From the NCBI RefSeq assembly GCF_000197735.1, contig NC_014550.1, positions 372,001 through 436,000 of the forward strand: a stretch of 64,000 nt of DNA. The letters run 5' to 3'. A model generated the notes under the pieces. The model did no database searches and was not told the DNA's origin. It saw only the letters and a list, made by a program, of their open reading frames with translations. A program made the translations under genes and the position numbers. The stretch comes from Glutamicibacter arilaitensis Re117. GTDB lineage: Bacteria; Actinomycetota; Actinomycetes; Actinomycetales; Micrococcaceae. Below, piece after piece: positions 2,204-9,107 of this stretch. Numbering within the stretch: position 1 is the stretch's first letter; every line of letters begins with the position of its first letter.

Positions 2204-3511
2204 GTGCACCATTCTATCTATACCCCCGCAAATCTCACGACTTTCACCAACCTTGACGGACTGGGACTCACCGCCATCGGGCAGCGCCTCACGCCGAAGA
2301 AAGCTGAGATCCTCTGCCAAGTGACCAACCCTGACCCATGGTGCCAAACGTGCGGAACGCCCGGAAATCCACGCGATACCGTCACCCGGCGCCTGGCCCA
2401 CGAACCGTTCGGATGGCGGCCCACCGTCCTGGTGATCAAGCACCGCCGCTACCGCTGCAACCACTGCCAACGAGTCTGGCGTGAAGACCTCAGCCAAGCG
2501 GTAGCGCCACGACAGAAAATCAGCCGGACCGGGCTACGCTGGGCTTTGGCCGGGCTAGTCACCCAGCACCTGTCAGTCTCACGGATTGCCGAAGGGCTCG
2601 GTGTCACCTGGAATACCGCCAACGAAGCAGTGCTGGCCGAAGGCCAGCGCCTGCTGATAGATGACCCAACCCGGTTCAACGGAGTCAAAGTGTTGGGAGT
2701 TGATGAGCACGTGTGGCGGCATACCAAAAGTGGAGACAAGTACGTGACGGTCATTGTTGACCTCACCCCGGTGAAGGCTGGCACTGGCACCGCACGATTG
2801 CTCGACATGATTCCCGGACGTTCCAAGGCCGTGTTCAAGACCTGGCTTGCTGAACGCGGTGAAGCATGGAAAAACAATGTTGAGGTGGTCGCGATGGACG
2901 GGTTCACCGGCTTCAAAAGCGCTGCTGCTGAGGAACTGCCCCAAGCCGTAGAAGTCTTGGACCCTTTTCATGTGGTCAAGCTCGGCTCCGAGGCGTTGGA
3001 CCAGGCCAGACAACGAGTTCAGCGTGAACAATATGGGCGGCGTGGCCGGAAAGATGATCCGCTGTATAAGTGCCGGCGTACGCTGACTACAGGTTTATCG
3101 CTGGCCACAGAGAAACAGAAACAGCGCGTTGAAGACCTGTTCAACGTTGCGAAGCACGAGCCTGTGCAATTGGTCTGGAGCGTTTACCAGAGGATGGTTG
3201 ATGCCTACCGGCAGAAGAAGCCCGAGATCGGGCGGTGGGCCATGGAGCAACTGATCAACGAGATCGGTACGAAGGTGCCCAAGGGTTTACCGGAGTTGAA
3301 GAAGCTCGGTGGTACGCTGCGCAGGCGGAAACCGGATGTCCTCGCGTACTTTGATCACGTTGGCAGTTCCAATGGGCCTACTGAAGCGCTCAATGGGCGG
3401 TTGGAGCACCTGCGGGGTATCGCTTTGGGGTTCAAGAATTTGGCGCACTATATTGCACGGTCATTGTTGGAAACCGGTGGCTTTAGATCGCGTTTACACC
3501 CTGAATCCTGA
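2204..3511 (+). CDS. ISL3-family transposase
   Basis: Transposase of 435 residues that would excise and insert the surrounding IS. The N-terminus holds a zinc-finger-like module (CQTCG near residue 48, then CNHCQ near residue 86) as in ISL3 proteins, followed by a helix-turn-helix-like region. The DDE catalytic domain includes GVDEH in the first strand and the MDGFTGF and DPFHVVKL segments. The C-terminus carries the NGPTEALNGRLEHLRG block characteristic of this family. It starts at GTG 2204. Its length is normal for the family and the frame is intact, so the element could be active. Confidence 0.93.
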   Translation: MHHSIYTPANLTTFTNLDGLGLTAIGQRLTPKKAEILCQVTNPDPWCQTCGTPGNPRDTVTRRLAHEPFGWRPTVLVIKHRRYRCNHCQRVWREDLSQAVAPRQKISRTGLRWALAGLVTQHLSVSRIAEGLGVTWNTANEAVLAEGQRLLIDDPTRFNGVKVLGVDEHVWRHTKSGDKYVTVIVDLTPVKAGTGTARLLDMIPGRSKAVFKTWLAERGEAWKNNVEVVAMDGFTGFKSAAAEELPQAVEVLDPFHVVKLGSEALDQARQRVQREQYGRRGRKDDPLYKCRRTLTTGLSLATEKQKQRVEDLFNVAKHEPVQLVWSVYQRMVDAYRQKKPEIGRWAMEQLINEIGTKVPKGLPELKKLGGTLRRRKPDVLAYFDHVGSSNGPTEALNGRLEHLRGIALGFKNLAHYIARSLLETGGFRSRLHPES

Positions 3512-4540: not shown

Positions 4541-5746
4541 ATGGGTGCGTCAGCGCGTTGCGTGATCTTTGCTGCCGTGGCCTTCTTCTCCATGCTCGGC
4601 GAGGGCATGGCCGTTTTCGCTTTGACCCTTGCAACGGCAGACGAACTGGGGTCATGGGGCGTCACCGCATTATTCTTGGCAGGGCTGGTGCCTCCGGTGG
4701 TCTTTGCTCCTTGGGTGGGGCGCTGGGTGGACGGTTCTGCGCTTTGGCGCGTATGGATCATCAATCTAGGTCTGCACGTGCTGGTATTTGCAGCCATGGC
4801 GCTGGCCGGAAGCATCATTGCCAGCTTGGCTTTGTTGTCCGTGGCCAGCGTTTGCGCAGTCGTCAACGGTGCAGTGATCTTCAAACTCATCCCACGAATC
4901 CGCGGGGGATTCAGCGTCGCCCGGGCCAGCAGCTTTCTTGTGGTGGCGACCTCGCTGGCCGGCATCATTGCCCCTGCCGTTGCTTCCTTCGTTTTTGCAG
5001 CACGTGGCCTGGGTGTTGTGCTGTGGTGCGCGGCGTTAGGTTTCGTGATCCTCGCCGTGGCGGCGGTGCTGCTCTTTTCTTCGCAGCGCTCGAATCCGGA
5101 TGAAACTGCTGCTTCCGCCGCGCCTACCGCGCCGCATGCGGCCGCTGCTGCACGAAGCACCGCGGTCTTGCTGCACGACTGGCGTCTGCGTGTGCTGTTG
5201 CTTCCAATGGCGGCCATTGTGTTGTTCACGGCTGCCGAGGGGGTGGCCGGGGTGTTCTATCTGCGTGAAGTGACCGCCACGGACACCGGGTACGCGGTAC
5301 TGCTGGGGGCTTGGTCGCTGGGAGCTGTGGCCGGTTCGCTGGTTGGCGGCAACCAGCGGTTTGGCGCGCGCAGCGCGCTGCCGATCCTGCTCGGTGGTGC
5401 TGGAGTCGGAGCCGCAATTCTGGTTGAGGGGCTTTGGGCTAATCCTGCGGGTCTGGCTGTGGTCTTCTTACTGGGCGGAGTGGGCAACGGGCTGCATAAT
5501 ACTGGGGTGCGAACGGCGATCTACGACTACGTGCCAGAATCCCGGCATGGTGCGGCGTGGGCCCAGCTTCGGATGATGATCAACATCATGGTTGCGCTGG
5601 GATATCTTGTCGGGACCCCGGGGTTGTTTGTTGAGCCTGCCCAGCTGGTTATCGTCTTTTCCGGTGCCGGGACGCTACTGGCTATCGCCCTGAGCCTTGT
5701 ATTGCTCAAGCGCAGGAACGGACAAAGTCCTATCTCGAATCGATGA
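4541..5746 (+). CDS. MFS transporter, probable exporter
   Basis: A 401-residue polytopic membrane protein with about 10-12 hydrophobic segments and the MFS motif-A-like loop WVGRWVDGS between the second and third. A second half begins near residue 215 after a short Ala-rich cytoplasmic linker. It most resembles the MFS_3/EntS-like group of 12-TM exporters. The start at ATG 4541 is set by GGAGGAG immediately upstream; the longer frame from 4214 crosses the divergent gene and is not credible. The substrate cannot be inferred. Confidence 0.82.
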   Translation: MGASARCVIFAAVAFFSMLGEGMAVFALTLATADELGSWGVTALFLAGLVPPVVFAPWVGRWVDGSALWRVWIINLGLHVLVFAAMALAGSIIASLALLSVASVCAVVNGAVIFKLIPRIRGGFSVARASSFLVVATSLAGIIAPAVASFVFAARGLGVVLWCAALGFVILAVAAVLLFSSQRSNPDETAASAAPTAPHAAAAARSTAVLLHDWRLRVLLLPMAAIVLFTAAEGVAGVFYLREVTATDTGYAVLLGAWSLGAVAGSLVGGNQRFGARSALPILLGGAGVGAAILVEGLWANPAGLAVVFLLGGVGNGLHNTGVRTAIYDYVPESRHGAAWAQLRMMINIMVALGYLVGTPGLFVEPAQLVIVFSGAGTLLAIALSLVLLKRRNGQSPISNR

Positions 5747-5964
5747 GTCGCCGCTACGCAGCATTTCACTCCGGGCTGTTGCCTGAACCGAGCTCAGATC
5801 ACTGAAATCATGGCTCAGCGCGCGAGCCAGGCATCAGGTAAAGGAGATCCTTCCTTCAACGGTTCCAATAATTTCTGCCACCTCTGACCCGTGGTGTTGA
5901 AGTACTGTCTTGCCGAACGCAAACGGGGAGTCCGCTGGAGGTGAAGTGCTGCGCCGCAACACGA

Positions 5965-5993
5965 TACAATCAAGTATTCGAATATTTGTACTA
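5965..5993 (+). promoter_or_regulatory. Probable SOS (LexA) box and -10 element of the umuDC operon
   Basis: TACAAT at 5965-5970 is a good -10 hexamer. TCGAATATTTGTACTA at 5978-5993 matches 11 of the 14 defined positions of the actinobacterial LexA site as I recall it (TCGAAM-A-NN-TGTTCGA). LexA bound here would cover the transcription start. The two genes downstream are classical SOS functions, which supports the assignment. The -35 region (5942-5947) is weak. Confidence 0.6.
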
Positions 5994-6016
5994 GCTTTCA
6001 GCAGGGAGTGGTGGGT

Positions 6017-6433
6017 GTGGCTGACGAACAAGAAATGATGCCTCCGGGTGCCAGCCATGGACCGGTCCAAGCGGTCTCTGCAATGGGATTCCCCTCGCCA
6101 GCCCGCGATTATTTCGACGGCGGCCTGGATCTGAACCGTTTGCTGGTGCGTGACCGGGTTTCCACCTTCATCATGCGCGTCTCCGGCAACGCCATGCAAT
6201 CAGCAGGAATCCATGACGGCGATGAAGTAATCGTGGACCGTTCGCTCTCCGTGCGCCATGGCTCTGTGGTGATCGTGAACCTCAACGGGCAGATGCTGGT
6301 GCGCCGCTGGCAGATCGATGGCCAAGAAGTCGGGCTGCTCAGCGATGAATCGCCGCTGCCTGTGGTGCTGACCGAAGGCGATGAAGTCAACGTTTTCGGC
6401 GTGATTACCAGGTGCCTGCATCATGTCCGCTGA
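6017..6433 (+). CDS. umuD: UmuD-like S24 family protein lacking the Ser-Lys catalytic dyad
   Basis: Homologue of the UmuD subunit of DNA polymerase V, 138 residues from GTG 6017 (AGGGAG 8 bases upstream; GTG 6008 also possible). The cleavage-site block GFPSPARDY (residues 24-32) and the S24 fold are clear. However, the residue at the catalytic serine of E. coli UmuD (Ser60, in GDSM) is Ala59 (SGNAM, codon GCC at 6191-6193). The residue at Lys97 is Arg96 (LVRR, codon at 6302-6304). The frame is otherwise intact and overlaps umuC by 11 bases, so it is unlikely to be a decaying gene. It should be unable to cleave itself and may act only as a polymerase partner. Confidence 0.85.
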
Positions 6434-7715
6434 TCACGTGGCCCTGGTGGACGTGAATAACTTCTACGTCTCCTGCGAGCGGGCCTTCGACTATTCGCTG
6501 CGCAATCGCCCGGTTGTGGTGCTATCGAACAATGACGGCTGCGTGGTCGCTCGTTCCCAGGAAGCCAAGGATCTGGGTATTCCTACGGGGGAGCCGTTCT
6601 TCAAGGTCCAGCGCTATATGGACTCCCATAACCTTGCGGTGCGTTCGAGCAACTATGAGCTGTACGGCGACATGTCCGCCCGCGTCATGGAATTGCTAGG
6701 CCGTTATGGAACCTGGCACGAGGTGTACTCCATCGACGAGTCCTTCGTCGGGCTGGAAGGCAATCTGGAACAGGTGCGCAGTGTTGCCGCCCAAATCCGT
6801 GCTGCCATTGACCAGAGCATTGGCTTGCCGGTGTGTGTTGGCGTCTCATCAACCAAGACCCTGGCGAAGCTGGCCAACCATATCGCCAAACACAATCCGG
6901 GACTTGGCGGAGTTTGCGTCCAGCAGCTCATGGACCCCGAAGTGCTGGAGAATATTCTGCACCGAGTGCCGGTGACCGATGTCTGGGGAGTGGGCCGCAA
7001 GACCGGTGCCAAGCTGGCAGCGATGGGTATTGAATCCATCGCGGACCTGCAGGCAGCTGATCCGCTGGCGATCCGCAAGAAGTTTTCGGTCGTCTTGCAG
7101 CGAACGGTCTTCGAACTCAATGGGCAACGTTGCATCGGACCGGTGGAAGAACGAGCGGACCGCGGCCAAGTCATGTTCACCCGTTCCTTCTCCACTCCGG
7201 TACGAACCCATGAGGCAATGGAAGAAGTCATGTCGATCTATGCGCAAAAGGCCGCCAGCCGGCTGGCTCGCGAAGGCCGATATGCAGCACTGCTCACCGT
7301 GACCGCGGGAACGAGCCGATTCGCCCGGGGAGAAGCGTCCTTCCCGAGCGCACAGGTGCGCCTGCCCCGGCCGACACGGGATCCCATTCTGCTCAGCAAG
7401 CTGGCCATTGCTGCGATGCGCGACCTGATGCAGCCGGGAATTGACTACGTCCGCGGGGGAGTGATCCTTTCAGGGCTTAGTGATTCACCCGGAGAACAAC
7501 AGCTGGATCTCTTTGGACAGAGCACGGATCCGGCTGCCGAAGAACAAGAAAATGTCTCCTCGGTAGTTCAAGATATTTCCGTTCGCTTCGGAGCCAAGTC
7601 CATCGGCCTGGGGCATGCAGGAATGGCTAAGAGCCCTGAATGGTCGATGAAACGTGAACACATTTCACAGCGCTACACCACGGACTGGGACGAGCTCTTG
7701 GTGGTTCAGGCCTAG
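6423..7715 (+). CDS. umuC: UmuC-like Y-family translesion DNA polymerase
   Basis: A 430-residue Y-family polymerase, normal length for UmuC. The palm contains Asp10 in ALVDVNNFY and the Ser-x-Asp-Glu pair at 103-106 (YSIDES), which bind the catalytic metals. The helix-hairpin-helix region ([10 protein letters not shown]) and little-finger domain follow. QLDLF at about 360-364 matches the sliding-clamp binding motif. It would copy damaged DNA in an error-prone way with the product of the overlapping umuD gene. The ATG lies inside the end of umuD, indicating coupled translation and shared SOS control. Confidence 0.93.
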
Positions 7716-7787
7716 GTCCAGCCAAAGGACAGCGCATCGTCGAGTCTTCTTCGGGAACCTCGCAGATTTCGATGGGAAGATGATCGC

Positions 7788-9107
7788 ATGACAACACGTG
7801 CCAAGCAGCTCTTGTCAGCCGGAATGCTGATGACGCTGATGCTCGCTAGCTGCAGTGCGCCGAATGCAGGAAAACCGGCTCCGAGCACGCCAACGACCAG
7901 TGTCAACATCTCCAGTGGTCCGACGGCTCCTGCGCAGCCAACTGCTCCCAGCCAGACCAGCGCATCTAGCAGCCACCTCGACACGATGCCCACGCAGAGC
8001 CAGCAACCTTCACCGCGTGAGCAAGCCGAAGCATTGGCAAACGAACTAAGCGTCAGCGAACAGGCTTCCAGCCTCGTGATGGCTGGTGTCCCGGCGACGG
8101 GAGCGAGTGCAGCTGAAATTTCTGCGCTGAAGAAACAGGGAATTTCCAATGTGTTCCTGCGCGGGCGCTCGCAGTTGTCTGTGAAACAGACTTCCGTCAA
8201 GGTTCAGCAAATTACGCAGAGCTTGGAAGCCAACGTGCCGGCGGACTTGCCGGTATGGGTGGCTACCGACCAAGAAGGTGGTTTTGTTCGGGTGCAGCAG
8301 GGCCCGGGTTTCACCGAACTGCCAACCGCGTTGACGCAGGGAGGCTGGTCCCCCTCGAAGCTGAAACGTGAGCTCGGCGCAGTGGGCAAGCAGCTGGTTG
8401 AGGCGGGCATTAACGTGAACCTGGCTCCGGTGGCTGATGTGGTTCCTGCCGAACTCGGCACCGGCAATGCGCCTATCGGCTACTTTGGCCGCGAATACGC
8501 CCACGGTGCCACCGCGGTTGCCAAAACGATGGCAACAGTGAATGAAGCGCTTCATTCCCAAGGAGTGCAGCCGGTGGTCAAGCACTTCCCCGGGCTGGGC
8601 CGTGTCGCCAAAAACACCGATACCAATAGCGGGGTGGCCGATACGAAAATTGATGCGAACTCCAGTGATCTGCAGCCCTTCGAACGGGCTATCGAGCAGG
8701 ACAAATCGTGGGTCATGGTTTCCAACGCCCGCTATGCCAAATTAGATGCGAAAAACGATGCACCGTTTTCATCGAAGATCATTACCGGCTTGCTGCGCGA
8801 GCAAATGGGATACGAGGGAATCGTGATTTCTGATGACCTCTGTGAAGCCAAGCAGGTGAGTTATCTTCAGGTGGGCGAGCGTGCAGTGAAGTTCGTTGCC
8901 GCTGGCGGAACCTTGCCTTTATGCGTGGAATCAGCTCCGGCGATCACCATGGCGAAGGCTCTGGCTGCCGAGGCTAAAGCAGATGGGAAATTCGCGGCCA
9001 AGGTAAAAGAAGCCGCCGTGAAGATCCTCGAGGAGAAGCTCAGCGCACGCCAAGCCGCACGGAGACAAATTAAAAGAGTAGGCCCGGGATGCTTCCTTAC
9101 TCGCTAG
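7788..9107 (+). CDS. Glycoside hydrolase family 3 lipoprotein (beta-N-acetylhexosaminidase-like)
   Basis: Secreted lipoprotein of 439 residues. A signal peptide ends in the lipobox LASC (Cys near residue 22), followed by a Ser/Thr/Pro-rich linker to about residue 75 and a GH3 barrel. The barrel contains ATDQEGG, the KHFPGLGR strand and VISDDL, whose first Asp is the expected nucleophile. NagZ enzymes carry a catalytic Asp-His pair after KHFPGHG; here the loop reads NTDTNSG with no histidine. It therefore belongs to the actinobacterial lipoprotein branch, and peptidoglycan GlcNAc hydrolysis is only likely. The stop codon lies inside the downstream terminator hairpin. Confidence 0.85.
   Translation: MTTRAKQLLSAGMLMTLMLASCSAPNAGKPAPSTPTTSVNISSGPTAPAQPTAPSQTSASSSHLDTMPTQSQQPSPREQAEALANELSVSEQASSLVMAGVPATGASAAEISALKKQGISNVFLRGRSQLSVKQTSVKVQQITQSLEANVPADLPVWVATDQEGGFVRVQQGPGFTELPTALTQGGWSPSKLKRELGAVGKQLVEAGINVNLAPVADVVPAELGTGNAPIGYFGREYAHGATAVAKTMATVNEALHSQGVQPVVKHFPGLGRVAKNTDTNSGVADTKIDANSSDLQPFERAIEQDKSWVMVSNARYAKLDAKNDAPFSSKIITGLLREQMGYEGIVISDDLCEAKQVSYLQVGERAVKFVAAGGTLPLCVESAPAITMAKALAAEAKADGKFAAKVKEAAVKILEEKLSARQAARRQIKRVGPGCFLTR

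Follow-up and report, generated by a model that had tools for sequence, protein, structure and literature searches.

The UmuD homologue encoded in the window (the whole stretch of 64,000 nucleotides of Glutamicibacter arilaitensis Re117 analysed here) has almost certainly lost self-cleavage. It belongs to a group of UmuD proteins with Arg at position 97 of the E. coli protein (R97-type, as opposed to the Lys97-type), and across the R97-type sequences sampled the fold, the GFPSPA..DY motif, the SOS box and the catalytic residues of UmuC are retained. Standard teaching makes RecA-driven self-cleavage of UmuD an obligatory step, which delays and licenses mutagenic pol V. Since the helper UmuD appears unable to cut itself in the soil bacteria that carry the R97-type, they probably control pol V by another route.

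The umuDC locus of the window

The locus comprises the following features (window coordinates).

5978..5994, + strand: SOS (LexA) box TCGAATATTTGTACTAG, from the sequence; its form is conserved upstream of R97-type umuD
6003..6008, + strand: Shine-Dalgarno-like AGGGAG, 8 bases 5′ of the GTG start, from the sequence by eye
6017..6433, + strand: umuD homologue, 138 aa, R97-type, S24 fold without catalytic dyad (NCBIfam NF007621, Pfam PF00717, PDB matches)
6059..6082, + strand: arm segment GPVQAVSA, codons 15-22, just 5′ of the former cleavage site (dN/dS)
6083..6085, + strand: Met23 (ATG), P1 of the former cleavage site, Cys24 in E. coli (alignment)
6191..6193, + strand: Ala59 (GCC) in place of the nucleophile Ser60 (sequence, alignment, PDB matches)
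6302..6304, + strand: Arg96 (CGC) in place of the general base Lys97 (sequence, alignment, PDB matches)
6341..6355, + strand: degenerated Omega loop SDESP; Lys97-type UmuD have Asn111 and an aromatic residue at 114 (alignment)
6423..7715, + strand: umuC, 430 aa, IMS domains and DUF4113 tail (Pfam IMS, IMS_C, DUF4113)

The window UmuD scores 117 bits against the NCBIfam profile NF007621 (cut-off 110). PDB matches assign it to the S24 / LexA C-domain fold, the nearest structure being that of UmuD′, and it carries the UmuD′ N-terminal motif GFPSPA..DY. Its gene forms an operon with an intact umuC through an 11-base overlap. A preliminary description had placed Ala59 and Arg96 at Ser60 and Lys97 of E. 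coli UmuD, and both the alignment and the PDB matches agree. It had also reported that GFPSPA is kept with Met before the scissile Gly, as the alignment confirms, and that the frame, the overlap with umuC and the SOS box are intact, which sequence and Pfam bear out. The Ser-Lys dyad is thus absent, and the cleavage site reads Met23-Gly24, neither the Ala-Gly nor the Cys-Gly given as the rule for self-cleaving S24 peptidases (PMC8565304). As for the degenerated Omega loop, the AlphaFold model has a strand at 112-117.

An alternative active-site Lys is ruled out, the protein having no lysine at all. Sequencing error at the two codons is excluded as well: 18/18 Glutamicibacter genomes searched have a umuD with Arg at 97 and Met at P1, position 60 being Ala in 12 and Ser in 6. 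Upstream of umuDC, a transposase-like ORF lies at window 2204-3511, with the look of the ISL3 family by eye. Rfam gave no match above gathering scores at window 5500-8500.

Peptidase, cleavage site and arm in the R97-type

UmuD sequences were taken from protein clusters, named genomes, viral contigs and genomes of Micrococcaceae. These are best-scoring samples and no census: the best 120 of 136 proteins, the best 80 of 370 genome hits and the best 80 of at least 505 confirmed viral hits. A family search of 295 genomes gave 30 loci and 60 fetched regions among the matches listed. Body-sequence duplicates, 8 LexA rows and one truncated protein (P0078) were removed before counting. The resulting non-redundant sample holds 169 R97-type and 156 Lys97-type sequences, counts which exclude loci from a later search of the order (297 genomes).

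The named R97-type sequences are nearly all from Micrococcaceae; outside the family, the type appears by name in a Cellulosimicrobium funkei entry (P0096) and in a Sporosarcina record (L122) whose name is doubtful. In that sample of the order (297 genomes), 24 had a match at 1e-20; those 8 that lie outside the family of the window all have Ser/Lys. No plasmid record at least 60% identical to the window UmuD was found among the best 5000 matches, and the 33 phage records which match it are all below 60% identity.

All 156 Lys97-type sequences have Ser60, and their P1 residue is Ala (124), Cys (31) or Val (1). Position 60 of the R97-type is Ser in 109, Ala in 51, Gly in 8 and Leu in 1, and P1 is occupied by Met (63), Ser (41), Thr (20), His (17), Arg (13), Ala (10), Ile (2), Gln (2) or Phe (1). 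The reciprocal combination, Lys97 without Ser60, is absent from the non-redundant sample (156 Lys97-type, 169 R97-type). Asn111 together with an aromatic residue at 114 is found in 156/156 Lys97-type; Asn111 persists in 6/169 R97-type, where position 114 is mostly Ala, Leu, Val, Pro or Ser. The arm has changed as well: large hydrophobic residues among the 13 preceding P1 average 5.8 in the Lys97-type (88 cellular, 68 viral) versus 1.5 in the R97-type (n=165, maximum 4). Taken together, these residue and arm counts indicate that peptidase, substrate site and hydrophobic arm were lost together.

Of 21 positions conserved at 98.5% or more in the Lys97-type (157 rows with E. coli), 13 are still at 95% or more in the R97-type, among them G25, S28, P29, D32 and Y33 of the arm. 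The eight relaxed positions are P27 (85% kept), S60, A88, D91, T95 (11%), K97 (0), L99 and N111 (4%); the window UmuD is altered at seven of them and retains P27. Overall variability is equal between the two types (mean entropy 1.15 for Lys97-type and 1.18 for R97-type). S60, A88, T95, K97 and N111 are listed as part of the structural catalytic core of UmuD (PMC12984324 Table 1), and V86, L107 and G129 of the core published there are retained in the R97-type. One R97-type umuD, in Arthrobacter sp. GMC3 (L139, 3066 onward), is without the GFPS part of the arm; its protein is MFGLDNPARDYF.

LexA retains its Ser and Lys in 8 Glutamicibacter loci, which serves as a control of the alignment and suggests that these bacteria possess the cleavage pathway. 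The earlier inference that activation of the window UmuD by self-cleavage is impossible is strongly supported, and it extends far beyond this one protein. The proposal that the Ala/Arg pair might mark a conserved clade in a Micrococcaceae alignment holds for the Arg, which is fixed; the Ala is just one among the states between which position 60 drifts.

The order of losses was approached with a tree of 93 representatives over 112 columns, from which the columns concerned were left out. With its bootstrap unsettled, this tree requires 2 changes between Lys and Arg, 1 of them forced by well supported branches, and 16 between Ser and non-Ser, 12 of them so forced and all among R97-type rows. A quicker method with 265 rows gave 2 and 18 changes, respectively. 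The test does not reject a single R97 clade (p-AU 0.383); the best tree groups two R97 rows with one Lys97 row. The simplest reading of these sequences would put loss of the base first, as one event or a few, with the nucleophile drifting ever since. Lys97 would have changed to Arg once or very few times in a lineage centred on Micrococcaceae. The Omega loop, Thr95, the hydrophobic arm docking in the cleft and the cleavage dipeptide would then have decayed, and the nucleophile many times over.

Retention of Ser60 in 109 of the 169 R97-type leaves some room for another view, in which Arg97 is a weak base supporting slow cutting, so that only the members without Ser are dead. A Lys-to-Arg mutant of LexA reportedly cleaves slowly at high pH, although no paper on it turned up in the open-access literature. 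We give this very little credence: the Ser keepers have lost the hydrophobic arm equally (1.56 of 13 residues, n=108), and the R97-type keeps Asn111 in 4% and Thr95 in 11%. In any case, it is inapplicable to the window protein.

Maintenance and interruption of the operon

An SOS box of the same form, as judged by consensus and conservation, lies 5′ of 62/80 non-redundant R97-type umuD, where 2.4 would be expected from shuffled sequences. The same pattern is found in 52/73 Lys97-type promoters, many of these in repeated sequence unlike a box, and for this reason only the R97-type result is used.

Among R97-type loci, 94 have an adjoining UmuC ORF; 83 of these were taken as full length and 60 are non-redundant, broken copies being excluded. 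D6, D101 and E102 are present in 60/60 of these non-redundant full-length R97-partner UmuC. Purifying selection acts alike on umuC and on the umuD body, with dN/dS of 0.086 and 0.093, respectively, over nine loci; the caveat is that pairs are non-independent and synonymous sites near saturation. Just two UmuC columns (E. coli 230 and 349) separate partners of R97-type from those of Lys97-type UmuD, and nothing clear emerges from them.

Within umuD, selection is uneven along the arm. From 153 pairs of 18 Glutamicibacter genomes, dN/dS is 0.29 over codons 2-14, 0.08 over the body and 0.04 at arm codons 15-23, where it falls to 0 among eight close genomes and synonymous sites are free to change. 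Being conserved as protein, the arm near the former cleavage site seems to be part of the working product. The constraint on GPVQAVSA indicates a role for the arm, and occupation of the dead cleft is another candidate for it. An already short N-terminus, one of the ways out offered in the preliminary description, does not fit: the conserved start is followed by a 22-residue arm, whose last 8 residues show purifying selection no weaker than that on the body.

These codons also bear on the idea, unlikely in our view, that the arm is still removed by other means, either another protease or a start at the internal ATG of Met23. A product begun at Met23 would, after Met removal, start exactly at Gly24, the end of UmuD′ in E. 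coli. Met23 is present in 18/18 Glutamicibacter, P1 is Met in 63/169 R97-type, and four database proteins (P0016, P0019, P0022, P0090) begin at this position. GFPSPA is retained, as though the UmuD′ end still mattered, in keeping with removal by another route. However, codons 15-23, with their dN/dS of 0.04 and free synonymous change, are apparently translated and important as protein. Moreover, no Shine-Dalgarno-like sequence is seen by eye 5′ of Met23 in the listed codons, and P1 is not Met in 106/169 R97-type. As the start of the main product, Met23 is disfavoured by the dN/dS of the codons upstream of it.

A further alternative is that uncleaved UmuD is a permanent brake, which holds UmuC inactive or slows replication, mutagenic pol V remaining unused. 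Non-cleavable UmuD is described as restraining UmuC in E. coli (PMC4552617), umuC is split or interrupted beside an intact umuD in 3/18 genomes (G001, G002, G006), and the conserved Glutamicibacter arm segment near the former cleavage site could fill the dead cleft. Against this, intact umuC is strongly constrained (0.086, nine loci) and keeps its catalytic residues in 60/60, which is unexpected of a polymerase never used; in addition, the hydrophobic residues of a docking arm are mostly gone. We consider a permanent brake improbable.

In 2 more of the 18 genomes (G004, G013), umuC lies several kb from umuD, and such broken or distant umuC indicate that some species can do without the operon. 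The interruptions are of different kinds. In G006 (L282, G006:C1:2145300-2159400), an element of ~12 kb interrupts umuC near codon 11, the preceding umuD being intact; by eye from the ORF list, it carries mercury-resistance-like genes and three recombinase-like ORFs. G002 has the same insert of ~120 bases at the homologous codon (~66) of two diverged umuC genes (L285, L286), containing an inverted repeat and stop codons. Some 20 kb split umuC in G001 (G001:C11:63858-85731). The gap between umuD and umuC is ~6.5 kb in G013 (G013:C3:126057-134266) and ~4.5 kb in G004 (L284, G004:C1:2265736-2271913). The umuDC locus looks like an insertion hot spot in Glutamicibacter.

Probable control of pol V without cleavage, and known relatives

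It is rather likely, by analogy with E. coli, that uncleaved R97-type UmuD acts like UmuD′, the full-length subunit being constitutively UmuD′-like. The analogy is with UmuD 3A (T14A L17A F18A), a full-length, non-cleavable E. coli protein called structurally similar to UmuD′ (PMC5342242): the R97-type, like UmuD 3A, has lost the docking residues. The segment which a published model inserts into the UmuC cleft (PMC11791011) is kept in the R97-type. In the R97-type, the arm would no longer dock on the globular domain and the conserved GFPSPA..DY segment would be free to enter this cleft. LexA would govern pol V at the level of transcription and RecA at that of its assembly, with no proteolytic delay. 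We infer in this way the support of pol V by the full-length protein, the free arm, the order of losses and the new control of timing.

Several points temper this reading. In the published model, the N-terminal end of UmuD′ lies at the active site of UmuC (PMC11791011), and the 22 extra arm residues might clash there. In E. coli, non-cleavable UmuD(K97A) is described as keeping UmuC at the membrane and strongly inhibiting pol V mutagenesis (PMC4552617), and UmuD 18, also uncleaved, as weakly mutable (PMC5342242), so that a free arm alone may not suffice. In the AlphaFold models the arm is of low confidence both in the window protein (pLDDT below 50, residues 1-33) and in a Lys97-type control (blocks 48-60), and the models do not tell a free arm from a docked one. 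The retention of V86, L107 and G129 of the core and the umuC genes broken or displaced in some genomes also count against the reading.

Beside cleavage-independent activation, the preliminary description had proposed activation in trans. A Lys97-type UmuD encoded elsewhere in the genome might act in this way, by cleavage or otherwise. The window genome does have a second UmuD of this type (L002, G000:C2:4550-4897, on a 50-kb contig), with Ser, Lys and Ala-Gly, and E. coli UmuD is reported to be capable of cleavage in trans (PMC5342242). As a general answer this fails, because 13/18 Glutamicibacter genomes are without a Lys97-type copy, a weak LexA-like sequence being their only other match; further UmuD matches occur in only 5/18. 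The P1 residue and the hydrophobic arm of the R97-type are also mostly no longer substrate-like. We regard trans cleavage as highly improbable, and cleavage-independent activity is the best supported of the ways out that had been offered.

The R97-type is also poor in lysine: 0.41% in UmuD (81 loci), compared with 3.46% in the partner UmuC (57) and 2.53% in Lys97-type UmuD (73), 92/169 R97-type bodies having none. As background, within the window 5/54 proxy ORFs are below 0.5% Lys and the median is 1.79%. A Pup-ligase family is present in 56/58 relatives. The switch could have moved to protein stability: the change of Lys97 may have belonged to a general purge of lysines that shields an uncleavable UmuD from pupylation, self-cleavage being the price; we find this quite doubtful. 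Pupylation alone does not force a purge, because the window genome has both the Pup-ligase family and a Lys97-type UmuD.

A naturally peptidase-dead UmuD lineage was not found in the open-access literature by titles and abstract openings. With an SOS box, a conserved umuC and a GFPSPA arm but no peptidase, the lineage makes the purpose of cleavage testable in natural non-cleavable variants. Some genomes, that of the window among them, have a dead UmuD beside a Lys97-type one and provide paired material. For part of the family, of which P0021 (Ala60/Arg97) is an example, the public name 'autoproteolytic subunit' is a misnomer.

Compared with E. coli UmuD/UmuD′ (NF007621, PF00717), the window protein is without the Ser-Lys dyad, the hydrophobic arm motif, Asn111 and lysine, and has Met-Gly instead of Cys-Gly at the site. 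HumD of phage P1 is a naturally short UmuD′ homologue which would act without cleavage. The window UmuD would likewise act without cleavage; however, it scores 63.6 bits against the HumD profile (NCBIfam NF051876), below the cut-off of 120, and whereas HumD is pre-shortened, it keeps a 22-residue arm that begins at a start codon found in 18/18 genomes. UmuD 3A and UmuD 18 are likewise uncleaved, with an arm thought to be free of the globular domain, but they are engineered, UmuD 18 being weakly mutable (PMC5342242), whereas the R97-type is a natural, conserved lineage. The superfamily has other members described as dyad-less, the CI repressor of phage 186, with Arg at the position of the base, and SipA of S. 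pyogenes; one is a repressor and the other a pilus protein, neither being a polymerase subunit (PMC12984324). Dyad-less members of the superfamily and short UmuD′ were thus already known, and a cellular UmuD lineage without the self-cleavage switch is apparently new.
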